Positions 13,591 to 26,750 of a stretch of 64,000 nucleotides of DNA are shown here, piece by piece. Below the pieces are notes generated by a model. It searched no databases. It saw nothing but the letters and a program-made list of their open reading frames with translations, and was not told the origin of the DNA. Origin of the DNA: Ignavibacteriota bacterium (GTDB lineage: Bacteria > Bacteroidota > Ignavibacteria > UBA10030 > SZUA-254); NCBI GenBank assembly GCA_025358305.1, contig JANYJZ010000008.1:1-64000 (forward strand). Reading direction: 5' to 3'. The position numbers and the translations under genes were made by a program. The stretch's first letter is position 1. Every line of letters begins with the position of its first letter.

Positions 13591-14304
13591 TTAAGGTAGA
13601 GTAGGATACTGCTTCAGGTAGTTAGATAGTTCCTCGAGGAATAACTTGGCGATGTTGCCGGCGCAGGGGCTTGACTGATCCGCCATGCGTTCGGGGTGCC
13701 ACTGCACGAGGAGGAAAAAGTGTTCCGCCGCGCCCATTTCGAGCGCTTCGACGATCCCGTCGGCGGCCGCCGCGGCGACGCGCAGTCCGGGCGCAATCTT
13801 CTCCACCGCCTGGTGGTGATGGGTGTTCACGCCCGCGCGGGGGGATACACCCGCGGCCTGGCTGAGAGGTCCTGTTCCCGCGATGACGACCGGATGGAAT
13901 GCCGGCGCATCTGCCGGGGACCGATGCGATGGATATCCCGACTCCTCAATGTCCACCATGAGCGTGCCGCCGAGAATGACGTTCGTGAACTGCATCCCCC
14001 GGCAGATGCCGAGGAACGGCCTCGGACGGGCGAGAACGCCATCCAAGACCTGCCGTTCGAACCGGTCGCGTTCCGGATCGACCCCGCTGAGCGCCGGATG
14101 GCGGACGGGGCCGCCGTAGAGCGAAGGATCGACATCTCCCCCGCCCGTGAGAATGATCCCGGAGCAGCCGTCGGCAGCCGGAGCGTTGCCGAGACGGTAC
14201 GACAAACGCACGATCTCCGCGTCCGGGGCGTACAGGTTGATCCACCGCGCATAATTCTGGTACCGCTCGTCCGCACCCATCGGGTCTGTGATGCCGATCT
14301 TCAT
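13591..14304 (-). CDS. Gamma-glutamyl-gamma-aminobutyrate hydrolase-like (peptidase C26) protein
   Basis: 237 residues, class I glutamine amidotransferase fold. The nucleophile is C101 in FLGICRGMQ, and the His/Glu partners are H203 and E205 in [16 protein letters not shown] at 52-60 and NTHHHQAV at 160-167 fit the PuuD/C26 group. Such enzymes hydrolyse gamma-glutamyl bonds; the substrate cannot be settled from sequence. The ATG overlaps the lpxK stop (ATGA at 14301-14304), so it is translated with the lipid A genes, though a link to lipid A is not obvious. No other putrescine-degradation gene is nearby. Confidence 0.9.
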
Positions 14305-15350
14305 GCGGCTCGCCTCCGGCTGGTCGTGCGGATGAGCTCCCGGAACTTCTCTTCGCCTCGGATCATCCGGCAGGCGATCTCGACGTACGAGGTGTTCGGC
14401 GGCAGAAGCCGGACGAGGCCGCTATCGCCGATGAGCCGGACGGCGTCCTTTTCCGTCGTGAGGACGTGGACAGGGCGCGCTGCCTCGACGCTCCGCCGAA
14501 TGGCCCCGAGATCCGACTCATTGAATGCATGGTGGTCCGGATACGTGTGGAGTTTCAGGACCGTGCAGCCCGCGTCCTCGAGCGTTCTCAGAAATGATCC
14601 GGGATCGCCGATGGCGCAAAAGGCGACCGCCGTCGCCCCGGAGAGCGCCGACAGGGGGAGCTCCTCGGCGCCGGTCAAGGGCACGCACCGCCGAGGCTCG
14701 GATCGCACGCAGCAGACGAGCGCGGAGGCGGCTTCGCCGAACGTTTCGTGATTGTGCGCGTCATCCTCGCAGCGCGAATAGACGAGAACGCCGGCCCTGG
14801 CAAGGGAGCGCATGACATCCCTCCGGAGTCCCGACGGGAGCAGCGGCATCGTGCGGAGGGATTTCGTGCTGTCCACCGTCACGATATCGAGAGCGCGGCC
14901 GAGCGCACGGTGTTGAAATCCGTCGTCGACGATGACGACGTCCGCACCGAACTCGCGGACGGCCGTTGCGGCGGCGCGGGATTTTTCCTCGTCCACGATG
15001 ACGACCGCCCGAGGGAACTTCCGCGCGACCTGGTACGGCTCGTCGCCGGACTCCCGAGCGCTCCCGAACAGACGGGAGCCGTCGGAGACGACGAACGGGC
15101 CGCTCGTTGCACGGGCGTATCCCCGGCTCACGACGGCGACGCGCAAGTGCTCCTCCAGAAGCAGGCTGACGAGGTATTCCACCAAGGGGGTCTTTCCTGT
15201 GCCACCCGCGGTCATATTCCCGACCGAGATCACGGGGACGGACATCGCTGCCGAGCCAAGCACCCCCAGGTCATAGCACCGGCCCCGGATCCACACGGCA
15301 GCGCCGTAGAGCCAGGAGACGGGACGCAGGAGGAGTGCGAGTGAGTTCAA
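14301..15350 (-). CDS. lpxK: Tetraacyldisaccharide 4'-kinase
   Basis: It phosphorylates the 4' position of the lipid A precursor at the inner membrane. I place the start at TTG 15350, whose last two bases sit in the lpxB stop (TTGA), giving 349 residues, a normal length. A frame open further upstream would lie within lpxB and reads as Arg-rich antisense-like sequence. The P-loop region VGNMTAGGTGKTP is near residues 43-55, with VSRGY, GDEPYQ and VIVDDGFQH following as in the family. The rare TTG start without a clear ribosome site suggests coupling to lpxB. Confidence 0.93.
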   Translation of the reverse strand: MNSLALLLRPVSWLYGAAVWIRGRCYDLGVLGSAAMSVPVISVGNMTAGGTGKTPLVEYLVSLLLEEHLRVAVVSRGYARATSGPFVVSDGSRLFGSARESGDEPYQVARKFPRAVVIVDEEKSRAAATAVREFGADVVIVDDGFQHRALGRALDIVTVDSTKSLRTMPLLPSGLRRDVMRSLARAGVLVYSRCEDDAHNHETFGEAASALVCCVRSEPRRCVPLTGAEELPLSALSGATAVAFCAIGDPGSFLRTLEDAGCTVLKLHTYPDHHAFNESDLGAIRRSVEAARPVHVLTTEKDAVRLIGDSGLVRLLPPNTSYVEIACRMIRGEEKFRELIRTTSRRRAA

Positions 15351-16480
15351 GGAGTCTGTTGCATGGCTGTTTCGAGAATGACCTTTGCGACCCGGCCCGA
15401 CGCCCCGGGCGTCCCCAGGCGGTCGCGCACGATGGAGAGCTCGCCGGACATCCGGCGGCGGGCATCCGGGTCGGAGAAGAGCTTTCCCGCTTCGCCGGCG
15501 AGCCGCTGCGGCGTGACGCTCCACTGGAGGATCTCAGGGACGACCGCCCGCCCCGCGACGATGTTCACCAGGCCGATGTTCTTGATCCGGACCAGGAGCC
15601 TGCCGATGGCGTAGGTCAGCGACGACGTCTTGTAGACGACGATCATCGGGGTCCGGAAGCACCCCGTCTCCAGCGTCGCCGTCCCGGAGGTCACGATCGC
15701 GACATCGGCGTTCTTCATGCAGTCGTACGTGGCGTGCTGAATGAGTTGCACAGGGAAGTCGTCTCTGAGAAACGACCTCATAAATTCGTGTTCGAGGATC
15801 GAGGAGACGCCGACCACCGTCTGGACGCCCATCGTCCGCGCGAGGAGGCGCGCGGCTCCGATCATGACGGGAAAGAGGCGTTCGACCTCTTGGCGGCGGC
15901 TTCCGGGGAAGAGCCCGAGCACCGGCTTCTCCGGATCGAGGCCGTAGCGCACGCAGAACTCCTTGCGGCCCTGGGGCTCGGTGAGTTCCTCGAGGAGCGG
16001 ATGGCCCACAAAGTCGACGGGGATGCCCTCCTTCTGATAGATCTCCACTTCGAACGGGAACACGACGAGCATCCTGTCGATGAGCCCCTTCATTTTCTTC
16101 ACGCGGCCCCGGTTCCACGCCCAGACCTGCGGGCTGATGTAGTAGACGACCTTGATGCCGGCTTTACGGACGGCGCGGGCGAACCGGAGGTTGAACCCCG
16201 GATAATCGATGAGAAGGACGAGGTCGGGGCGCCGGACCTTCAGGAGCACCTTGAGCGTCCGCTCGACCGACCGGATGAGCGGCAGATGCTGGAGCACCTC
16301 CAGAAAGCCCATGAACGCGAGCTCCCGGATGTTATAGATAAGCTCCATCCCCTCCGCCTGCATTTTTTCGCCGCCGATGCCGTAGATCATGCATTCCGGA
16401 TCGGCCGCCTTGAGCTCCCGAACGACCCCGGCGCCGTGGAGATCCCCTGAAGCTTCCCCCGCGATGATCATGACGCGCAC
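15347..16480 (-). CDS. lpxB: Lipid-A-disaccharide synthase
   Basis: 377 residues, glycosyltransferase family 19. It joins UDP-diacylglucosamine and lipid X to form the tetraacyldisaccharide that LpxK then phosphorylates. GEASGDLHGAG is at residues 8-18, and YYISPQVWAWNRGR and LGLFPGSRRQEV are typical of the family. The start is GTG 16480, preceded by GGAGG; an ATG three codons later lies too far from that site. It follows the ICMT-like gene by 4 bases and overlaps lpxK. Confidence 0.96.
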   Translation of the reverse strand: MRVMIIAGEASGDLHGAGVVRELKAADPECMIYGIGGEKMQAEGMELIYNIRELAFMGFLEVLQHLPLIRSVERTLKVLLKVRRPDLVLLIDYPGFNLRFARAVRKAGIKVVYYISPQVWAWNRGRVKKMKGLIDRMLVVFPFEVEIYQKEGIPVDFVGHPLLEELTEPQGRKEFCVRYGLDPEKPVLGLFPGSRRQEVERLFPVMIGAARLLARTMGVQTVVGVSSILEHEFMRSFLRDDFPVQLIQHATYDCMKNADVAIVTSGTATLETGCFRTPMIVVYKTSSLTYAIGRLLVRIKNIGLVNIVAGRAVVPEILQWSVTPQRLAGEAGKLFSDPDARRRMSGELSIVRDRLGTPGASGRVAKVILETAMQQTP

Positions 16481-16484
16481 GGGG

Positions 16485-17066
16485 CTATTTCCTCCAGATC
16501 CAGAAGGCCGCCAGGACGATCGCGATCAATCCGATCGCCTGTAACGTGCGCCGTTCCGACCTCCATCCCCTCTTCCAGTCGATCTCCGGCTGTTCGTGCG
16601 TCCCGCCGGAGAACGGCTGAAGGGCGGGGAAGAACCTCGGGACTTTGGCGCAGTAACCTTTAAAATCCTCGCCGAACGTCGCTCGGAGATACTCCTCTTC
16701 GAGGCTGACGATGCTGGAATACTGAAATGCAAAGTAGGCGACCGCTCCCAGCGTCAGCCACGGAAAAAGCGCGTTCGACATGACGCCGACCCCCGCGTAT
16801 AAGAGCATGTTGCCGACGTAGAGCGGGTTTCGGACGTAGGCGAACGGCCCCCGGGTGATGAGATACGTCCCGCCGACCGAGCCGGTCGTCCTGGTTTCGC
16901 TCCCGGCGATCGCGACGCCCCAGAGACGCAGGAACTCGCCGCCCGCAACGAGAATGAGGCCCGTGGCGAGGCTTGCCGCCGTCGGCGCCGCAAAGAGCAC
17001 CATGAGAACGAGAAAGGGGATCGGCGTGTAGCTTCGATAGCGGAAGAGCATCTGGCGGATGTCCAT
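16485..17066 (-). CDS. ICMT/phospholipid-methyltransferase-like membrane protein
   Basis: 193 residues from ATG 17066, which has GAGGGG upstream and follows the previous stop by 11 bases. Four to five hydrophobic segments are visible. The family core RGPFAYVRNPLYVGN at residues 72-86 is the SAM-binding signature of the isoprenylcysteine carboxyl methyltransferase/PEMT-like group, and EEEYLRATFGEDFKGYC at about 115-135 is the usual follow-on. Bacterial members methylate lipids or small membrane substrates; the substrate here is unknown. Its place among lpxB, lpxK and an HAD phosphatase suggests envelope lipid chemistry, which is inference. Confidence 0.85.
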   Translation of the reverse strand: MDIRQMLFRYRSYTPIPFLVLMVLFAAPTAASLATGLILVAGGEFLRLWGVAIAGSETRTTGSVGGTYLITRGPFAYVRNPLYVGNMLLYAGVGVMSNALFPWLTLGAVAYFAFQYSSIVSLEEEYLRATFGEDFKGYCAKVPRFFPALQPFSGGTHEQPEIDWKRGWRSERRTLQAIGLIAIVLAAFWIWRK

Positions 17067-17077
17067 ACGATCGCCCC

Positions 17078-17815
17078 TCATCCGCCGAGAAATACGTCGC
17101 ACCGGGCCTGCACGGCCTGGCGGCGCTTTCGCAGCGCGAGCGGGGAGCCCGCGGGCTCCCGGAGAAGGGATTCAAGCCGCAGGACGATCTCGCCGCACGA
17201 CTCATAGGCAACATAGGAGATGTTCTCGCGCTGGCAGAACTTCAGGAGGTCATCCTTCGCGAAGACGAGGTCGGCATAGCGCGCCGGACAGCGGTCGGAA
17301 TAGCCTTCGCCGATGTAGACGACGATGTCGTCGTCCGCCGACTGGGTCAGGATGTGGTTCCTCTTGCAGCAGGCGCACCGGTCGCACACTTCGTCCCGGT
17401 ACGGAAATGCCGGCGAGAAACGGACCATCCCGGGGTCGACTGCAGGAACGAGGTTGAGGGTGTTGGCGTAGAACGCAACGTCCCCGAGGCCGTGGCGCTC
17501 CAGGATCCGCCGGATGTAGTAGTCCATGCCGTCGCTCAAGATCGTGACGGGGTACCCCCCTTGTGCCCCGAATCGGACGAGGTCCGCGAACGTGCCGTCG
17601 ATCTCCTGTGCGTCGAGGAAGGAGTCCATGTCGCTTTTCCGCACGAGGCCGCAGGCGTCGCACTCCGCTCGGAAGCAGTCCGCCGCCGACAGGAGTCCCT
17701 CGCGGTACCGTTCCACCGCCCCGACGGATCGTTCGCCGCCGAGCCGCTCGAACAGCGCGTCGCCGACGTCCTGCCGTGTGATCGTGCCGTCAAAATCTAT
17801 GAAGAGCCTGAGCAT
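17078..17815 (-). CDS. MtnX-like HAD-IB family phosphatase
   Basis: 245 residues. HAD motif I is DFDGTIT at residues 7-13 (D7, D9), motif II is S94 in ILSDGMDYYI, and motif IV includes GEGYSDRCPA with D174. A Cys cluster, CDRCACCK at 144-151, is typical of MtnX-like proteins (2-hydroxy-3-keto-5-methylthiopentenyl-1-phosphate phosphatase) and may bind zinc. No other methionine-salvage gene is near, so the true substrate is open. It lies 34 bases after smc and 11 before the ICMT-like gene. Confidence 0.85.
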   Translation of the reverse strand: MLRLFIDFDGTITRQDVGDALFERLGGERSVGAVERYREGLLSAADCFRAECDACGLVRKSDMDSFLDAQEIDGTFADLVRFGAQGGYPVTILSDGMDYYIRRILERHGLGDVAFYANTLNLVPAVDPGMVRFSPAFPYRDEVCDRCACCKRNHILTQSADDDIVVYIGEGYSDRCPARYADLVFAKDDLLKFCQRENISYVAYESCGEIVLRLESLLREPAGSPLALRKRRQAVQARCDVFLGG

Positions 17816-17849: not shown

Positions 17850-20800
17850 TTAATTCGTGACGGCGGCGGAGCGGAGTCTCGCTTCGTCGTTGAACCGGAC
17901 GGTGACGATCTTGGAAATGCCCTCTTCTTCCATCGTGATGCCGTACATCGCGCTCGCCGCTTCCATCGTCCGCTTGTTATGCGTGACGACGATAAACTGG
18001 GTGTTCGTGGAGAACTTCTTCAGGATCCGCGTGAACCGATCAACGTTGGAATCGTCCAAGGGAGCGTCGACCTCGTCAAGGATGCAGAACGGGCTCGGCT
18101 TGACGAGATAGATGGCGAACAGGAGCGCGATCGCCGTGAGCGTCTTCTCTCCGCCGGAGAGCAGGTCGATGGACGTCGGGCGCTTGCCGCGCGGCTTCGC
18201 GATGATCTCGATCTTCGCCTCGAGCGGGTCGACATCCTCCTCGAGCTTCAGGTCGCATTCGTCCCCTTCCAGGAAGAGCTCCTTGAAGATCGTGATGAAG
18301 TTCTCGCGGATCTTCGCGAACGTCTCGGAGAAGATGCGCTGGGCGGTGTTGTTGATCTCATCGATGGTCGACAGGAGGGTCTTCTCGGCCTCGATGAGGT
18401 CGTCCCGCTGCTGCGTCAAGAACGTCAATCGTTCGCTTTCGGTCGTGAACTCGTCGAAGGCGGCGAAGTTGATGGCCCCAAGGATGCGGATCCGGTCCTT
18501 GAGGTTCTTCACCTCCTCGCGCAGGTGGGCGAAATCGACGAACTCGTCGTCGGGGTACGCCTTGAGTTCGAGGTCGAGGTCGAACTCCTCCTTCGCGCGC
18601 AATTTGACATGCTCGATGTTCGAACGGAGCTCGGAGATCTTCATCTCGAGGTCGTGCGCGGCGGCGGTCGAGTCGTCGTGGAGCCGCCGTTCGTCCTTGA
18701 TCTTCAGTTCGCGCGCATGGAGATCGTTCCGCTTCGTGCCGTAGCGCTCATCGACGGCCTGCTTCTCCTCTTCAAGGACCCGCAAGCCCTCCCTGAGCAC
18801 CTCGAGCTCGCTCGCGTGCGCCTCGACGTCCGCCGTGAGGACCCTGGACTCCTCCCCGGCGCGCGCGATCTCGGTGTCGCGGCGGATGAGGGTCACCCGG
18901 ATGTCGTCCATGCGCGCGTCCGCGCGCTCGATGTCGCGGTCGATGTTCCTCAGGTCGCTCTGGAGCGTCACGACCTTGATCTCAAACTCGTTCACCGCTT
19001 TCGTCTTCTCGTTCCACCGGAGTTCGAGCGTCTCGAACTCCCGTCCGGCGGTCTGCGCGACCGATTCCCGGTCCGTCTTCTGGTGCTGGAGGTCGGTGAG
19101 TTCCGACCCCATGGCTTCGTGCTGGCCCTGGAGCTGGACGATCTCGGTCTTGAGGAGCGAGATCTCGCCGGCGTTGCGCTCCACGCCGTCGCTCGCCCGC
19201 TTCTTCTCGAACTCGAGCTGCGCGATGCGCATCTCGATGGCCGTCATTTCCTTCTCGATCGCCTTCACCCGGTCGGTGAAGGGCTTCATCTCCATCTGTT
19301 CGTACCGCTCGGTCGAAGCGGCGAGCTCCGCCTCGGCGGCTCGGAGCGAGAGTTCCGCTGCTTCCACGTCGCGCTGGAGTTCGGCGATCATGGCGGTCTT
19401 CCCGATGCTGCCACCCTCGTCAAGGCGGCGGCTGCCGCCGCGGAACAGCCCCGTGCTGCCGACGATGTGGCCGTCGAGCGTGATGCAGCGGACGCCGGTC
19501 ACCTTCCGAAAGACATCCTCGGCGACGCCGAGGGTCTCCACGAGGATCACGTCGTCGAGGAGAAAGTTCATGAGAGGCCGCAGCCGCTCTTCGCAGTCGA
19601 TGACGTCGGTGGCCCAGACGTAGGGGATATTGAGCTTCTTCCTCCCCCTGCGCCGCACGACGGGGATCCATTCGAGACTCACGATGGAGGCTTTCCCCGA
19701 ATCGCTCTTGCGCAGCTCGTCGACCGCGGCGTAGCCGTCCTGGATCGTGTCGACGACAAGGTAGTGCGCCGCCTCGCCCAAGGCCGCTTCGATCGCCACG
19801 CGGTACTTCTCCTGGGCGTGGACGCTGTCGGCGATCGCGACGATCTTCTTCTGTTTCCACGTCGCATGTCCCAAGAGGTGCTTCGCGCCGTCCGAGTACC
19901 CTTCGTTGCTTTCGAGCATCTTGCGTATAAAATCGATCTTCGACATCTTTCGTTCGATGTCGTTCTTCACTTCGAGGACCTTCTTCTGGAGGCCGTCGAC
20001 CCCGCCCTTGAGCGTCTTTTTCGACTTCTCGCGGTCGTAGAGTTCCATCTCCGCCTCGACGAACTGCCGCCGAAGCTCCTTGTCCTTCGCCGTGAGATCG
20101 GCGACGAGGCTCTCATTCGTCCTGATGTCCGAGTGGTAGAGGTTCGCGTCCTCCTGGGAGCGGTCGATGCGTCCGGTGAGGTTGTCCATCCGGGCCTTGA
20201 TCCGCTCCTGCTCGCCCCGTTTCTGCACGAGGGCGTGCGCGAGCGCGAGGATGGCGTCCTTGAGGGACACCACGTCCGCCTTCTTCGCGTCGAGAGTCCG
20301 GCCGAGCTCTTCGTACTCCGCCTTCATCGAGGCGAACATCTGCGCGGAGCGGTCGTATTCCCCCTGGAGGTGCCCCCGGCGCGCGCCGTGGGCGATCTTC
20401 TCGTTTGCGATCGTCTCTTGCTGCGCCTGAAGATCGGTCTTCTCTCCTTCGTAGCGCCCGATGTTCTCCGCCAGGGCGCTCAGGCGTTCGCTTGCCACCA
20501 AGACCTTCTCTTCCACGCGGTGGATGCTCGCGAGTTCCGCCGACACGGTCTGCTGCGCCTGGCGAAGCTGCGTCTCGGTCTCGGCGAGCCCGGAGCGCAA
20601 GAGGTCGATCTGGTCCTCCTGGGCTCTGAGGGACGCGTCGATGGTGCTCTTGTCGGTACGGGCGAGCGTGAAGCGCTCCTCGATCGGCTTCAATTTGGCG
20701 TGGAGGTAAGCGTACTCGCGCTCCTGCAGGTCGATCTCGAGGGCCTTGAGGCGCGCGCTGACCTCGTTGTACTGCTCCGCCTTCTTCGCCTGGCGTTCGA

Positions 20801-21413
20801 GGGAGCTCACCGTCTTCTGGACCTCTTTGACGATGTCGTTGACGCGCGACAAATCGACCTGGACGCTCTCGAGCTTGCGCATGGCCGCCTTCCGGCGGTG
20901 CTTGTACTTCGTGACGCCGGCCGCTTCTTCGAAAAGCTTACGGCGTTCGTCTGTCTTGTCCGAGAGGATGGTCTCGACCATCTTCAGTTCGATGACGGAG
21001 TAGGCGTCGCTTCCCATGCCCGTGTCCATGAACAGGTCGAGGATGTCCTTCAGGCGGCAGGGGACCTTGTTGAGAAGGTATTCGCTCTCCCCTGACCGGA
21101 AAACGCGCCGGGTGATCGTCACCTCGGAATACTCCGTCGGGAGGATGCCTTTCGTGTTCTCGATCGAGAGGGAGACCTCGGCGAGGCCCAAGGGCTTCCG
21201 GTTCTTCGTCCCGTTGAAAATGACGTCCTCCATCTTGTCGCTCCGGAGCGTGCTGTAGCGCTGCTCGCCGAGGGCCCATCGGATCGCGTCGACGATGTTC
21301 GTCTTGCCGCAACCGTTCGGGCCGACGATGGCCGTCACGCCGGTGTCAAAGTTGACGTTGATCCGCTGCGCGAACGACTTGAAGCCGATGATCTCTATTT
21401 TCGAGAGATACAT
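17850..21413 (-). CDS. smc: Chromosome segregation protein SMC
   Basis: 1187 residues, full length for bacterial SMC. Walker A is GPNGCGKT at residues 31-38. Long coiled coils flank a hinge at about 505-665 (GYSDGAKHLLG to GSTGLFRGGS). The C-terminal head carries the signature LLSGGEKTLTAIALLFA and Walker B CILDEVDAPLDD. SMC dimers with ScpA and ScpB organise and help separate sister chromosomes; scpA and scpB are not in the window. The ATG lies only three bases after the stop of the GH2-like gene, so its translation probably depends on that gene. Confidence 0.98.
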   Translation of the reverse strand: MYLSKIEIIGFKSFAQRINVNFDTGVTAIVGPNGCGKTNIVDAIRWALGEQRYSTLRSDKMEDVIFNGTKNRKPLGLAEVSLSIENTKGILPTEYSEVTITRRVFRSGESEYLLNKVPCRLKDILDLFMDTGMGSDAYSVIELKMVETILSDKTDERRKLFEEAAGVTKYKHRRKAAMRKLESVQVDLSRVNDIVKEVQKTVSSLERQAKKAEQYNEVSARLKALEIDLQEREYAYLHAKLKPIEERFTLARTDKSTIDASLRAQEDQIDLLRSGLAETETQLRQAQQTVSAELASIHRVEEKVLVASERLSALAENIGRYEGEKTDLQAQQETIANEKIAHGARRGHLQGEYDRSAQMFASMKAEYEELGRTLDAKKADVVSLKDAILALAHALVQKRGEQERIKARMDNLTGRIDRSQEDANLYHSDIRTNESLVADLTAKDKELRRQFVEAEMELYDREKSKKTLKGGVDGLQKKVLEVKNDIERKMSKIDFIRKMLESNEGYSDGAKHLLGHATWKQKKIVAIADSVHAQEKYRVAIEAALGEAAHYLVVDTIQDGYAAVDELRKSDSGKASIVSLEWIPVVRRRGRKKLNIPYVWATDVIDCEERLRPLMNFLLDDVILVETLGVAEDVFRKVTGVRCITLDGHIVGSTGLFRGGSRRLDEGGSIGKTAMIAELQRDVEAAELSLRAAEAELAASTERYEQMEMKPFTDRVKAIEKEMTAIEMRIAQLEFEKKRASDGVERNAGEISLLKTEIVQLQGQHEAMGSELTDLQHQKTDRESVAQTAGREFETLELRWNEKTKAVNEFEIKVVTLQSDLRNIDRDIERADARMDDIRVTLIRRDTEIARAGEESRVLTADVEAHASELEVLREGLRVLEEEKQAVDERYGTKRNDLHARELKIKDERRLHDDSTAAAHDLEMKISELRSNIEHVKLRAKEEFDLDLELKAYPDDEFVDFAHLREEVKNLKDRIRILGAINFAAFDEFTTESERLTFLTQQRDDLIEAEKTLLSTIDEINNTAQRIFSETFAKIRENFITIFKELFLEGDECDLKLEEDVDPLEAKIEIIAKPRGKRPTSIDLLSGGEKTLTAIALLFAIYLVKPSPFCILDEVDAPLDDSNVDRFTRILKKFSTNTQFIVVTHNKRTMEAASAMYGITMEEEGISKIVTVRFNDEARLRSAAVTN

Positions 21414-21416
21414 TCT

Positions 21417-24002
21417 TTACGCCGGGTTCTTCATGGAATGGAGGAGGTACTTGACGTAGACAGAGGTCGAGCGCGTATAGTCGACATAGCCGTAGAGCGC
21501 GGCCGCCGACAACACGATGATGAGGATGCCCGCGATGTACACCTTGAACGGATAGACGTCATAGATGATGGAGATCCCCTTGAACAGCCGGATGATCACC
21601 CACACCGTCACGACGCCGATGAGGATGAACGTCGGCATCGTGTAGACCTCGGCCTCCATGAGCCGGTAGAGGATCATGGCGACGGGGATAAAGATGATGT
21701 ACGGGAGCATCGACCAGACCGTGATGGAGAACGCGTGGTAGAAATAGACATGCGTCCGGACGAGCATCGAGAAGATCCGCACGAGAATGCTCAACAGGAG
21801 GATCTTCACCAGGATGATCCCCGACACGACGAGGATGAACCGGGACGGGCTCCAGATGAGGAAGATAAGGTACTCCTTCACGCCATCGGACACGATATGG
21901 GACAGCATGTTGTCGAGGAGGACGCTGTCGCGGTAATGCGACAGGATGCTCGACAGAAGCGTCGCCCAGGTCACCGAGACGATGACCGCAAGGAAGATCG
22001 AGTGGCCGTACGTGAGGATCCGCTGGTCGCGCACGTCGGCGAAGAAATTGTACGTCCTGACGAGCGACCGGTTGACGCAGTCCCGGAACCGGCGGTTGCC
22101 GTTGTAGAAGAACGCGAACGAGATCAGCACGATGAGCCCCGCGATGACGTACATGACCGGCGTGCTCGAGGAATAGTTCCCGACAGGGAGCGCCTGGACC
22201 TTTTCCCCGTTGAACATCGCTCGGGCGACGTCGAACGCGGTGCGCTTCTCCCGGTCCTGGCTGACGAGGCCCATGGCCTGGAGGTACGGATCGCCGGAGT
22301 GCGTCGAGAGCGTCGGGCGGTCGGTGCGCCAGTCGTTGAACGACCAGAGGACGCTTCCGCCGAGCTTCGCTTCCTTCGCCGCCTCGTAGATCTGCAGGAG
22401 GTAGCGCGCTTGGGCTTCCAACGAGAGAGGATCGCTGTAGCCGTTCTTGTTCCCCGGCTCCACTTCCTGGCCGAACCTGGAGAGGATGAGCGGCTTTCCG
22501 GCCGAGCCGGCCTTCCAGTTCTTCAAGGACTCGCGCAGGGCCCGGACGTCGGTCTGGTACGTGTTCACCGCGATGAGGTCCACGTAGGCGAGGCACGGGT
22601 CGTCGGGCGTGCGCGTCGCGTAGTACACGGGGCGGTGGTCGAGCGACTGCACGGTGTTCCGCATGCCGTTGACAAAATCACACATCGCCGGGACGCTGGT
22701 CTCGAACTCGCTCCCGATGCCCCAGGCGAGTATCGAGGCATGATGGCGGTCGCGCAAGACCATTTCCTTGAGATAGGTCGAGGCGAGGTCCTGGTAGTAG
22801 TCCTCGGCGAGGATTGTCGCCGGGACGTCCTCCAGGGGGATCTCTTCCATGACGAAGAGGCCGTAGCGGTCGCAGAGGTTCAGCATGTACGGGTGCGGCG
22901 GGTAGAGGAACCGGACGAGGTTCGCGCCGAGCGTCTTAATGGTCGCGACGTCCCGTTCGAGCGTCTCGTACGTCAGCGCCGAGCCGGTGAGCGCATGGTC
23001 CTCCTGCCAGAGCACGCCCTTCAAGGGGGTCGCCGTCCCGTTGACGAAGAGGCGGCCGTCCTTCCACTGGAGGTCGCGGAACCCGTAGTCGAGCGCGAAC
23101 TCGTCGAGGATGGTCACTTCCTTGTTGACGAGCCGGACGATCTGGCACTTCAGGACGTAGAGATCGGGCGTCTCCGGCGACCAGACCTTCGCGCCCGGGA
23201 TGACGAGCTCCGCATGGACTTGGACCGACTTGTTCATCTGCGGCGTGAGCGGGGAGATCCCGCTCCTGCCGACGATCTCGCCGGAGAGCTTGTCGTACGC
23301 CTCGACCTGGTACCCGAGGAGCGAGCCCTGTTCGGGCACGATACCGGATGCCGCATCCACGATCATGGACCGAACCTGCACCTTTGCGGTCTTCGTATCG
23401 GTCTTCATCTCGAAGGTGACGCTTGAGGAGATCTCCGTCTCGTCGACGTAGAGCTTCGGCGTGGCGAGGATGTAGATGTCGCGGAAGATCCCGCCGTACG
23501 TCCTCCAGCCCCCCACCGGTTGGCGCAAGGGGAGCGTCGTCTTCGGCGTCAGCTCGTTGTCCACCATGACCTTGATGGCGTTCTCCGTCCCGACCTGGAG
23601 CGTGTTCGCCGGGATCTGGACGACGAACGAGGAGTACCCGCCGGAATGCCTGCCGACGAAGTTTCCGTTGATCGTGATCTCGCTCTGGTAGTTGATGCCG
23701 TAGACGACAAGGGAGAACGTGTACTTGTCGAGCATCTCCGGCTTGATGTCGAACGTCCGGAGGAACGTCACCTTTCCGGTGAAGTCGTACGCGCTCGGGA
23801 CGGCGACCGCGGCCCACTGCTTGCCGTCGCGGGAATAGCGCCAGGGTCCTGCGAGGTCGATCTTCATGCGCGACGGAGAATCGGCGAACATACCGACGTC
23901 CGACCCGGTGCGGGTCGGCTTTCCGTTCTCAAAAAATACCGGATGCGAGAGGGGAGTCTGGGTGGATCCTGGGAGGACGAAGAGCACAGAGAGCACTGCC
24001 AA
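21417..24002 (-). CDS. Membrane-anchored GH2-like protein with altered active site and Yip1-like tail
   Basis: About 861 residues from TTG 24002. Residues about 40-330 are GH2 sugar-binding and immunoglobulin-like domains (WRYSRDGKQW, QPVGGWRTYGGIFRDIYI), and about 330-610 the (beta/alpha)8 part. In the acid/base motif the usual Asn-Glu reads S431-E432 (WGIGSEFE), and the nucleophile Glu is replaced by R509 (KPLILSRFGQE). Loss of the nucleophile argues for a non-catalytic protein. From about 635 onward six or seven hydrophobic segments follow, the middle part recalling Yip1-type domains. The protein should face the periplasm and anchor in a membrane. The N-terminus is unclear: the frame continues to a non-standard ATT at 24044, which would give a far better signal peptide (KTPDYTSAKR then a hydrophobic core). 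It is the first gene of the smc run. Confidence 0.82.
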   Translation of the reverse strand: MAVLSVLFVLPGSTQTPLSHPVFFENGKPTRTGSDVGMFADSPSRMKIDLAGPWRYSRDGKQWAAVAVPSAYDFTGKVTFLRTFDIKPEMLDKYTFSLVVYGINYQSEITINGNFVGRHSGGYSSFVVQIPANTLQVGTENAIKVMVDNELTPKTTLPLRQPVGGWRTYGGIFRDIYILATPKLYVDETEISSSVTFEMKTDTKTAKVQVRSMIVDAASGIVPEQGSLLGYQVEAYDKLSGEIVGRSGISPLTPQMNKSVQVHAELVIPGAKVWSPETPDLYVLKCQIVRLVNKEVTILDEFALDYGFRDLQWKDGRLFVNGTATPLKGVLWQEDHALTGSALTYETLERDVATIKTLGANLVRFLYPPHPYMLNLCDRYGLFVMEEIPLEDVPATILAEDYYQDLASTYLKEMVLRDRHHASILAWGIGSEFETSVPAMCDFVNGMRNTVQSLDHRPVYYATRTPDDPCLAYVDLIAVNTYQTDVRALRESLKNWKAGSAGKPLILSRFGQEVEPGNKNGYSDPLSLEAQARYLLQIYEAAKEAKLGGSVLWSFNDWRTDRPTLSTHSGDPYLQAMGLVSQDREKRTAFDVARAMFNGEKVQALPVGNYSSSTPVMYVIAGLIVLISFAFFYNGNRRFRDCVNRSLVRTYNFFADVRDQRILTYGHSIFLAVIVSVTWATLLSSILSHYRDSVLLDNMLSHIVSDGVKEYLIFLIWSPSRFILVVSGIILVKILLLSILVRIFSMLVRTHVYFYHAFSITVWSMLPYIIFIPVAMILYRLMEAEVYTMPTFILIGVVTVWVIIRLFKGISIIYDVYPFKVYIAGILIIVLSAAALYGYVDYTRSTSVYVKYLLHSMKNPA

Positions 24003-24209: not shown

Positions 24210-24253
24210 GAGTCGCAGGGTGCAACAAGCGGGGGGAGAGAGACGTTCGGCGT

Positions 24254-24278
24254 CCCTCCCCCCCTCACCCCCCCCCCC
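24254..24278 (-). repeat. G-tract region, possible G-quadruplex
   Basis: On the minus strand runs of 11, 7 and 3 Gs follow each other with 1-3 base gaps (C-runs at 24268-24278, 24258-24264, 24254-24256 on the plus strand). The runs can supply four G-blocks. The tract lies between two operons. Confidence 0.45.
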
Positions 24279-24367: not shown

Positions 24368-25417
24368 TCAGCGTCGACGACGCAGCCCCGGACGCGCTCC
24401 GACGAGCGCCAACAAGAGAAGAGCCAGGCCTGTCACAACGAACGCCCAGACATTATGTATCCGTGAAGATGCCCGCATGACATAGGTGCCGACATGGACC
24501 TGATCGGGGGAAAATTTCCACGAAGCGGTACTCCCTTCCACGACATCGCTGTTCGTGTTAAGGAGCAATCCGGGCAATTGGACGGCATAGGCCCATCTGT
24601 CAGGAAGCTTCATGGCTTCCTCCTTTCGTTCGATCTCTTCCAGCGCCGCCGCCGCAGCGGGCTCGAGCCCGAGCACCGCATCGGAACCGAGCACATCCGC
24701 GAACAACCGTAGGAGATCGTGTGCCGACTGGATACCGGTGCCAGAGGGTCGTTTCCCTGATCCAGCGACCGCGTGATTCAACGAGTCCGTCAGGACGAGA
24801 GTGCCGAAGCACTCGTCGCGCTTCTCGAGCAGCAGCTTTTCGGAAAGCGCTGGGTCGGCCCGTCGGCGCGCTTCTGCAACGAGTCGTCCGTAGACGAACT
24901 CGAACTGGGTCCGGAGATACCAGCGTTGCGCTTTGTCTTTGAGCGTCTCATCCTCGGCATCGCGCTGGAATCGCTCGATCTCCTCGCTCGTCAGATAGCG
25001 GGACACCGGGACGTCCGGAAAAGGATTGCGGTACGTGTAGGATTCCTCGTAGTCGAAATACGTGAAGAACCAGGCAAACCGCCGTTCAAGGGAGACTGAC
25101 AGGCCCATCACGCCACTGTCGGGGCTCGCGGAACGCTCACGCTCCAGTTCTTCCGGGGTTCGAAAGGCCTTGCGGGCGACAAATTCGTACTTTGCGTCTT
25201 TTTCGACAAGTTCCTTCCACTCAACCGACCAGGTCGAATCGGTTGGCGCCGGGAACAACTTCTCCGGAACATGTCGCGTCGGAAGTTTTGCCGAAATCGT
25301 CCGCACGCTCGACCCGTCCGGAGCGACCGTCGTCCGGACCACTTCATCGAGACACCCGGAGAATGAAAGGAACATCGGTATCAACAGGAGGGTCAGCATC
25401 GCCTTGGTTGTCGTCAT
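24368..25417 (-). CDS. Lipoprotein with C-terminal membrane anchor, third gene of an ECF sigma cassette
   Basis: 349 residues. An N-terminal lipobox LSFSGC puts the acylated Cys at residue 22, and VWAFVVTGLALLLLALVGA near the C-terminus is a membrane helix followed by RPGLRRRR. The protein would thus be held at both ends, with a hydrophilic middle rich in charged residues on the outer face of the inner membrane. No catalytic motif is apparent, and I do not recognise the family. The ATG overlaps the anti-sigma stop (ATGA, 25414-25417), so it is made with the anti-sigma factor. Likely roles, by position only, are sensing or modulating release of the sigma factor, or being its target. Confidence 0.85.
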   Translation of the reverse strand: MTTTKAMLTLLLIPMFLSFSGCLDEVVRTTVAPDGSSVRTISAKLPTRHVPEKLFPAPTDSTWSVEWKELVEKDAKYEFVARKAFRTPEELERERSASPDSGVMGLSVSLERRFAWFFTYFDYEESYTYRNPFPDVPVSRYLTSEEIERFQRDAEDETLKDKAQRWYLRTQFEFVYGRLVAEARRRADPALSEKLLLEKRDECFGTLVLTDSLNHAVAGSGKRPSGTGIQSAHDLLRLFADVLGSDAVLGLEPAAAAALEEIERKEEAMKLPDRWAYAVQLPGLLLNTNSDVVEGSTASWKFSPDQVHVGTYVMRASSRIHNVWAFVVTGLALLLLALVGARPGLRRRR

Positions 25418-26160
25418 TGTCGTATCTCCCCTTCACGGATCATGCGTTCGAGCTCGTTGATCAATGATTTGCCTTCGGTCGCGAGTATGGTCCGCTCTCG
25501 CTCATCGATGCCGTCATCCGGATTGACGGTCGAGAGGTTCGGATAGCGGCGAGAGAGTTCTTCAAACAGCCCGCGGCGATGCCCGAACAGGTCGCCCAGT
25601 CCCAAGCCGTACGCCGCGAGGAGATCGCCCCCCGGAGCCGCGCTTGCGATCCGGGGAGGAGTCCAGGGCATCCTTACGGACTGATCCCCGATGAAAAGGA
25701 GGGATCGGGCACCCATTGGCGGCAGGAACGTCGGGCCCGACGGACGTTGCGCGCCGCGTTCCCGAAGCCGCGCGTCTAGCTCGGAGAGCTGCGCAGCGTC
25801 GCGGGACTGTTGGACAAGGAAGAGCACCGCCAGCACGACCACTGCGAAGGAGAGCCCGGGTCGCAGCCATCGCACCAGCAGCTCAAGAGACGGCATGCGG
25901 GAAGGTGCCCGGTATCCGTTTTCCCGTTCGAGCTCGATCCGGCGTATCGTCTCTTTCGCCGTTCCGGCATCGATCGAAAACGCCGGCACGCGCTCCCTCG
26001 CCGGGCGCAATGCGGCCTCCATCGCAAGAAGCTCCCCCTGTAGCTCCCTGCACCGGGAACACGAAGCGAGATGTTCAAGGAGTCTGCTGCGTTCCTCCGG
26101 GGTCAATTCGCCTTCGCGGTAGAGATACACCAGCATTTCGACTGACGCACAGTTCTTCAT
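25414..26160 (-). CDS. Anti-sigma factor with zinc-finger-like domain
   Basis: 248 residues from ATG 26160, which overlaps the sigma stop (ATGA, 26157-26160); a longer frame upstream has no family features. The cytoplasmic N-terminus has the zf-HC2 pattern H30-x3-C34-x2-C37 (HLASCSRC). One membrane helix lies at about 92-115 (SFAVVVLAVLFLV). The periplasmic part of about 130 residues contains a Pro/Gly-rich section (PTFLPPMGARSLLF) and ends in an acidic helix. It should bind and hold the neighbouring ECF sigma factor at the inner membrane until a signal arrives. Confidence 0.9.
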   Translation of the reverse strand: MKNCASVEMLVYLYREGELTPEERSRLLEHLASCSRCRELQGELLAMEAALRPARERVPAFSIDAGTAKETIRRIELERENGYRAPSRMPSLELLVRWLRPGLSFAVVVLAVLFLVQQSRDAAQLSELDARLRERGAQRPSGPTFLPPMGARSLLFIGDQSVRMPWTPPRIASAAPGGDLLAAYGLGLGDLFGHRRGLFEELSRRYPNLSTVNPDDGIDERERTILATEGKSLINELERMIREGEIRQ

Positions 26161-26750
26161 GCTTGCCCGCCTTCCTGAAGTGACGCCATGGCAGCGCGGA
26201 TCCGTTTGCGCGCGTAGCACAAGTTCGTCTTCACCGACCCGACCGAGATCCCCGTGAGACCGGCGACCTCCTCACTTGTAAAATCCTCAACATCGCGGAG
26301 ATGGAACACGAGCTTTTCCATGGGAGGGAGCTCCTGCGCTTTCGCAAGGATCTGATCGCACAGATCGGCCCGCTCGGTCTTCTCTTGAAGATCCGACGCG
26401 TCGGCGACTTCGCTGTGCCGGAAGAACGTCGCGCCGTAGCCGAAGATCCTGCCTTTTCGAGACCTTTTCTTGAGTGTATCGTAAGAGAGATGCACGACGA
26501 TGGTGTAGAGCCAGGTGGTAAATTTCACATCCGCGCTATACGCTGCAAGATTTCTCCATACCCTGACAAAGGCTTCCTGAACGACATCGTTCGCATCCTC
26601 CGCGTCGCGGAGCAACCGAACGGCGAGTATGTATGCGTATCGCTGCTGCGAGTCCATGAGCCTTCGAAATGCGGACAGATCACCCTCCAGGCTTTTTCTG
26701 ACGAGCTCTTGCAGTTCGATATTGTGTTGCTCAGATGCTGAGAAAGTCAC
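26157..26750 (-). CDS. ECF-family RNA polymerase sigma factor
   Basis: 197 residues from GTG 26750 with AGGA eight bases upstream. Region 2 includes DANDVVQEAFVRVWRNL and TTWLYTIVVHLSYD; region 4 is near the C-terminus with FTSEEVAGLTGISVGSVKTN and CYARKRIRAAM, the recognition helix. No region 3, as expected for ECF factors. Its own candidate promoter (26784-26807) has AACC and CGTAT blocks spaced as in ECF targets, so it may control itself. The cassette sigma, anti-sigma, lipoprotein is fully coupled by two ATGA overlaps. Confidence 0.95.
   Translation of the reverse strand: MTFSASEQHNIELQELVRKSLEGDLSAFRRLMDSQQRYAYILAVRLLRDAEDANDVVQEAFVRVWRNLAAYSADVKFTTWLYTIVVHLSYDTLKKRSRKGRIFGYGATFFRHSEVADASDLQEKTERADLCDQILAKAQELPPMEKLVFHLRDVEDFTSEEVAGLTGISVGSVKTNLCYARKRIRAAMASLQEGGQA

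Follow-up and report, generated by a model that had tools for sequence, protein, structure and literature searches.

The gene at positions 21417-24002 (-) of the window, which is the whole stretch of 64,000 nucleotides analysed here, encodes a pseudo-glycosidase of the GH2 fold fused to a six-helix membrane domain of the Yip1 type. The nucleophile of the GH2 family is replaced in this protein, and the classical GH2 reaction has very probably been lost. The gene is a core gene of its class and of related Bacteroidota lineages, and its conserved pairing with smc is new. The loss of catalytic residues, combined with a near-universal retention that is usually beside smc, points to a role that is probably in binding or scaffolding and not in the cutting of sugars.

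The protein is 861 amino acids long (TTG start, TAA stop), and the fusion is present as a single copy in its own genome. It begins with a hydrophobic, signal-peptide-like segment (residues 1-15; 23957-24002, -), in a region that is modelled with low confidence (residues 1-19). Since no in-frame ATG precedes the mature part, translation may actually begin a little upstream of this TTG, at a non-ATG codon. Non-ATG initiation is common throughout the family: among the 117 orthologues having an upstream stop, 67 lack any in-frame ATG ahead of residue 20, and a TTG is the sole candidate start in 50. Three domains then follow in the order of the GH2 fold, as assigned by Pfam and the structural model: an N-terminal jelly-roll, sugar-binding-like domain (residues 36-182; 23457-23897, -; PF02837, E 5.5e-9), a middle immunoglobulin-like domain (residues 183-311; 23070-23456, -; PF00703, E 7.6e-5) and a TIM barrel (residues 312-601; 22200-23069, -; PF02836, E 6.3e-29), the last also by structure match. 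The AlphaFold2 model, obtained with a 36-sequence alignment, had a pLDDT of 90 and a pTM of 0.87. Residues 36-601 superimposed on the beta-glucuronidase 7kgy_B with a Z-score of 38.9 and an rmsd of 2.1 Å over 521 residues; the Z-score against the E. coli beta-glucuronidase 3k4d was 38.6. The original prediction that, the active site apart, the GH2 fold is intact is thus borne out. Upstream of the gene, a G-rich tract (24252-24278, -) lies within a short inverted repeat (GGCGTC ... GACGCC). No RNA families were found in the window with Rfam.

The catalytic residues were located by phmmer alignment to solved structures. R509 (codon AGG, 22476-22478, -) lies opposite the glutamate of ITEIG or VTEFG in 6ncw and 6ncy, and S431-E432 (codons AGC and GAG, 22707-22712, -) lies opposite the Asn-Glu pair of the same two enzymes. 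The nucleophile glutamate of barrel strand 7 is therefore absent, and at the acid/base site on strand 4 the glutamate is present as E432, with the preceding asparagine replaced by serine. Codons and alignments agree on both substitutions, which had been proposed from the sequence beforehand. With arginine in place of the nucleophile glutamate, the classical double-displacement mechanism of GH2 enzymes is very probably not possible. The N-x-K motif with which beta-glucuronidases read the carboxylate of uronates is missing as well; the NRK of 6ncy aligns to Q575-A576-M577.

Conservation was assessed in 135 distinct full-length orthologues, drawn from related genomes and from a collection of genome contigs (in the contig collection a single-protein query returned no relatives and an alignment query returned 80 loci). 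Position 509 is a glutamate in 16 of the 135, and the residues found there include serine (32), arginine (23), glycine (19), lysine (15) and alanine (13). Position 432 is a glutamate in 28 and has lost it in 107; both catalytic glutamates occur together in a single orthologue. Retention of R509 and S431 among orthologues, which the original prediction had put forward as a check, did not materialize (arginine in 23/135, serine in 24/135): the feature shared by the family is the absence of the glutamate pair, not Arg509 or Ser431 as such. Orthologues with glutamate at position 509, named beforehand as an observation that would speak against the prediction, do occur, but 15 of these 16 are without the acid/base glutamate, so that the classical mechanism is not restored in them. 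On the FastTree tree, glutamate requires at least 8 changes at position 509 and at least 15 at position 432. An error in the alignment of the active site was rejected, since all 20 of the ordinary GH2 paralogues taken from relatives keep the nucleophile glutamate and the acid/base Asn-Glu in the same alignment (paralogue L239 was counted as keeping the pair; its NE is misaligned by a column, as is visible in the raw sequence). E513, the nearest glutamate after R509, was rejected as an alternative nucleophile, being kept in only 39 of the 135.

The one orthologue with both glutamates (L110, 7911-10499, +; GNE ... ITEYG) comes from a metagenome-assembled genome titled Candidatus Kryptonia. Its GH2 barrel scores more strongly than that of the window protein (6.6e-47 versus 6.3e-29), and for this reason it may have retained the ancestral state; a regain of the glutamate pair may also account for it. 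In the FastTree tree it forms a long branch of its own near the base of the group of the window protein, at a place that is not settled exactly. Judged by its sequence L110 may be an active enzyme, and the family may thus include catalytically active members; the canonical pair of L110 and the E432 retained in the window protein are the counterpoints to the pseudoenzyme reading. L110 thereby offers a direct handle on the ancestral activity.

The membrane domain comprises residues 614-861 (21420-22163, -), as judged from the model, the charge pattern and Pfam. The model shows six membrane helices and short interfacial ones; together with the charge pattern this gives the five helices of Yip1 plus one preceding helix. 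Folded alone, the C-terminal part reached a pLDDT of 88.5. The match of the window protein to the Yip1 family PF04893 is weak (E 0.069; 13.4 bits, under the gathering cut-off of 28.6 bits), and 22 of 33 homologous membrane domains match the same family, the best with an E-value of 4.5e-7. A stand-alone relative, L211, exceeds the cut-off with 33.3 bits. The resemblance to Yip1 that had been noted for the C-terminal multispan domain is thus supported. No match to the membrane domain above background was found in the PDB (Foldseek E 1.7, VIA-align Z 5.5), which does not in itself make the fold novel. The loop after the first membrane helix (residues 637-663; 22014-22094, -) is positively charged and carries the pattern R-x-F ... 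R ... YNF-x-x-D-x-RD, in which R637, F639, R645, Y651-N652-F653, D656 and R658-D659 stand out as conserved. Averaged over the 135 orthologues, this loop has 6.6 Lys plus Arg in 27 residues; the corresponding values for loops 3 and 5 are 2.2 and 3.0, and in all three loops Lys plus Arg exceed Asp plus Glu. In loops 2 and 4 they do not, and the charges on the outside are fewer or balanced. From the positive-inside rule and the hydrophobic start we infer that the GH2 fold is periplasmic and loop 1 cytosolic.

We propose that a GH2 fold of the beta-glucuronidase type would be exported to the periplasm and that the six-helix domain would hold the protein in the inner membrane. The family as a whole has abandoned the catalytic pair but retains the fold, along with a loop rebuilt where the former active site opens and the charged cytosolic motif just below the first membrane helix. 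The periplasmic domain would most likely hold a hypothetical envelope glycan or partner protein without cleaving it, and the membrane domain would serve as an anchor, or might convey to the cytosol that the periplasmic domain is occupied, in a hypothetical form of signalling. Our confidence that the protein is a periplasmic domain, putatively binding or scaffolding without cleavage, on an inner-membrane anchor is moderate. The original prediction had guessed at a non-catalytic, sugar-binding receptor or scaffold. Its non-catalytic part is supported, across the whole class, given R509 and the rarity of the glutamate pair; a sugar-binding receptor or scaffold is conjectural, and the N-x-K motif of glucuronidases is absent. 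The conserved pairing with smc had escaped that prediction.

Alternatively, the protein could assist an as yet unseen membrane protein as its chaperone or accessory subunit, with the GH2 part acting only as a bulky protein-protein interface. The analogy is with rBAT and 4F2hc, heavy chains of amino-acid transporters, in which an inactive glycosidase ectodomain is likewise mounted on a membrane anchor (PMC8537225). The relatives with reduced architectures fit such a role. L211 (8821-9702, +) is a 294-residue protein that consists of the Yip1-type domain only and lies upstream of smc, and no GH2 part is found in the 18 kb examined at this locus; in L214-L217, which belong to other families of the phylum, frames of 529-680 amino acids hold the barrel and the Yip1-type domain but neither of the two GH2 domains that normally precede the barrel, and these genes do not adjoin smc. 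Since the membrane part is kept alone in the former and with only the barrel in the latter, it seems to be the more constant element of the two. Against an accessory subunit, a transporter gene is never a constant neighbour in the loci compared, and the conserved loop at the old sugar-binding mouth fits ligand binding too. We regard this explanation as unlikely.

Conservation within the GH2 part also bears on whether the fold has taken up another sugar reaction, catalysed by conserved carboxylates (D524, D557) or by the retained E432. Of the positions conserved in at least 85% of the 135 orthologues, 49 fall within residues 20-611 and 16 within the membrane part. Many in the former group are common to ordinary GH2 enzymes and hence likely structural; those that are conserved but not common to ordinary GH2 are chiefly P394, G428, Y460, residues of the loop N518-A532, and G608. 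This loop, N518-x-x-G-Y-x-D-x-x-S-x-E-x-Q-A532 (22407-22451, -), follows directly on the strand of the dead nucleophile. Its residues N518, G521, Y522, D524, S527, E529, Q531 and A532 are 85-100% conserved in the orthologues and mostly different in the 20 GH2 paralogues. A rebuilt, conserved loop beside the old nucleophile, the presence of E432 in the window protein and the retention of D557 in 134 and D524 in 115 of the orthologues would all suit a neofunctionalised enzyme. However, D557 is found equally in ordinary GH2 enzymes (19/20) and is therefore probably structural, and E432 and E513 are each missing from most orthologues, as described above. A new catalytic function of this kind appears improbable.

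The gene neighbourhood was examined in two overlapping sets of loci. In the window, smc, encoding the chromosome condensation ATPase (17850-21413, -; PF02463 3e-72, plus hinge), begins 3 nt after the stop codon of the gene, and is followed by genes for a HAD-like phosphatase (17078-17815, -) and a PEMT/ICMT-like methyltransferase (16485-17102, -) and by lpxB (15347-16480, -) and lpxK (14301-15524, -), the last two named from sequence. In all 32 loci from genomes of the same taxonomic order, the gene immediately precedes smc; where the contig extends far enough, the HAD-like, ICMT/PEMT-like, lpxB and lpxK genes usually follow the pair and tpiA, gatB and sucC usually precede it. In most of these loci no more than a few hundred bases separate tpiA from the gene; in the window, the interval holds genes for a sigma factor, a zf-HC2 anti-sigma-like protein and a lipoprotein-like protein (24368-26750, -). 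In the wider set, which includes copies of some same-order genomes so that the two counts overlap, smc is adjacent in 65 of the 92 loci with room to judge and not adjacent in 27. Among the 88 loci in which the distance from the stop codon to the start of smc was measured, 80 have a value of -1 to 25 nt, and the gene is probably translated together with smc. In L131, L138, L202 and L205-L210, loci of other lineages from which the lpx and tpiA genes are absent, smc is the only neighbour of the set that remains. Adjacency to smc is missing in many Kapabacteria-type loci. The loci without adjacent smc have no other constant neighbour: hrcA/grpE/dnaJ-like genes lie downstream in at most 4 of them, and a larger neighbour cluster, with 7 members, is inconsistent in both side and strand.

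The pairing fits either a shared function of the gene and smc or simply stable co-expression, between which gene order alone cannot separate. A cytosolic face that recruits the SMC complex or signals to it would explain why the two genes travel together, why smc persists farthest among the neighbours, why the gap is so short and why the YNF-x-x-D-x-RD motif is conserved on the cytosolic side. This envelope-chromosome link is very unlikely: it is built on gene order, which may simply be inherited; tpiA, gatB and sucC are nearly as constant within the taxonomic order and have no plausible link to the protein; and more than a quarter of the wider loci lack the adjacency. More speculative still, and hardly to be expected, would be a system in Ignavibacteria and their relatives in which envelope glycans are sensed in the periplasm and the cytosolic motif acts on the SMC complex, coupling the state of the envelope to chromosome organisation.

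The family is widespread within the class. Matches were obtained in 59 of the 60 relatives searched, and a profile of the membrane domain matched 188 of the 197 class genomes, as a rule once in each and in frames of mostly ~830-940 amino acids. Across the phylum the profile matched 116 of 395 genomes; outside the class, strong matches are confined to a few families and most sampled genomes have none. The reading frames of the orthologues stay open, uninterrupted by stops, at 22-66% identity, which, together with the near-universal single copy, indicates that the gene is under selection and not decaying. The gene of L213 (6330-9115, +), in a single-contig genome, is split over three overlapping frames, owing to decay or sequencing error. 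A decaying former enzyme retained by chance in the operon could be read into the free drift of the catalytic residues, the missing GH2 part of L211 and the apparent frameshifts of L213, but conservation across the class, full-length open frames, a high-confidence fold and conserved positions in both parts of the protein make this extremely improbable, and simple decay, which the original prediction had already set aside, is rejected.

Overall, the protein illustrates how a membrane-bound pseudo-glycosidase is conserved in bacteria, and hints at a putative core function beside smc. Although its domains would earn it the annotation of a glycoside hydrolase, genome surveys should leave it out of their tally of sugar-degrading enzymes. 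Pseudo-glycosidases tethered to membranes have precedents, among them rBAT/4F2hc and Klotho. The literature search, which left most subscription journals outside its reach, returned no description of a GH2-Yip1 fusion retained beside smc throughout a bacterial class, of such a bacterial pseudo-glycosidase or of the smc neighbourhood in Ignavibacteria.

Compared with the GH2 beta-glucuronidases and beta-galacturonidases (7kgy, 3k4d, 6ncw), the protein has the complete three-domain fold (Z about 38, 22-26% identity); it differs in its replaced nucleophile, in Q-A-M (575-577) for N-x-K and in the added C-terminal membrane domain. Klotho is an animal protein with dead GH1 ectodomains and a single membrane helix that acts as an FGF co-receptor. 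It is alike in that a pseudo-glycosidase forms part of a receptor, and differs in its animal origin, its GH family and its single helix. With Yip1-domain proteins (PF04893, clan CL0112) the membrane domain shares a five-helix core preceded by a charged segment; unlike them, it is fused to a periplasmic GH2 fold. The function of prokaryotic Yip1 proteins has not been reported (PMC6682643). The heavy chains rBAT and 4F2hc, whose ectodomains are dead members of GH13 (the alpha-amylase family), work alike in that a glycosidase fold without its usual activity is tethered to the membrane (PMC8537225). They differ in glycosidase family, in having one membrane helix instead of the six found here and in having a known transporter partner, and the likeness does not imply common descent.
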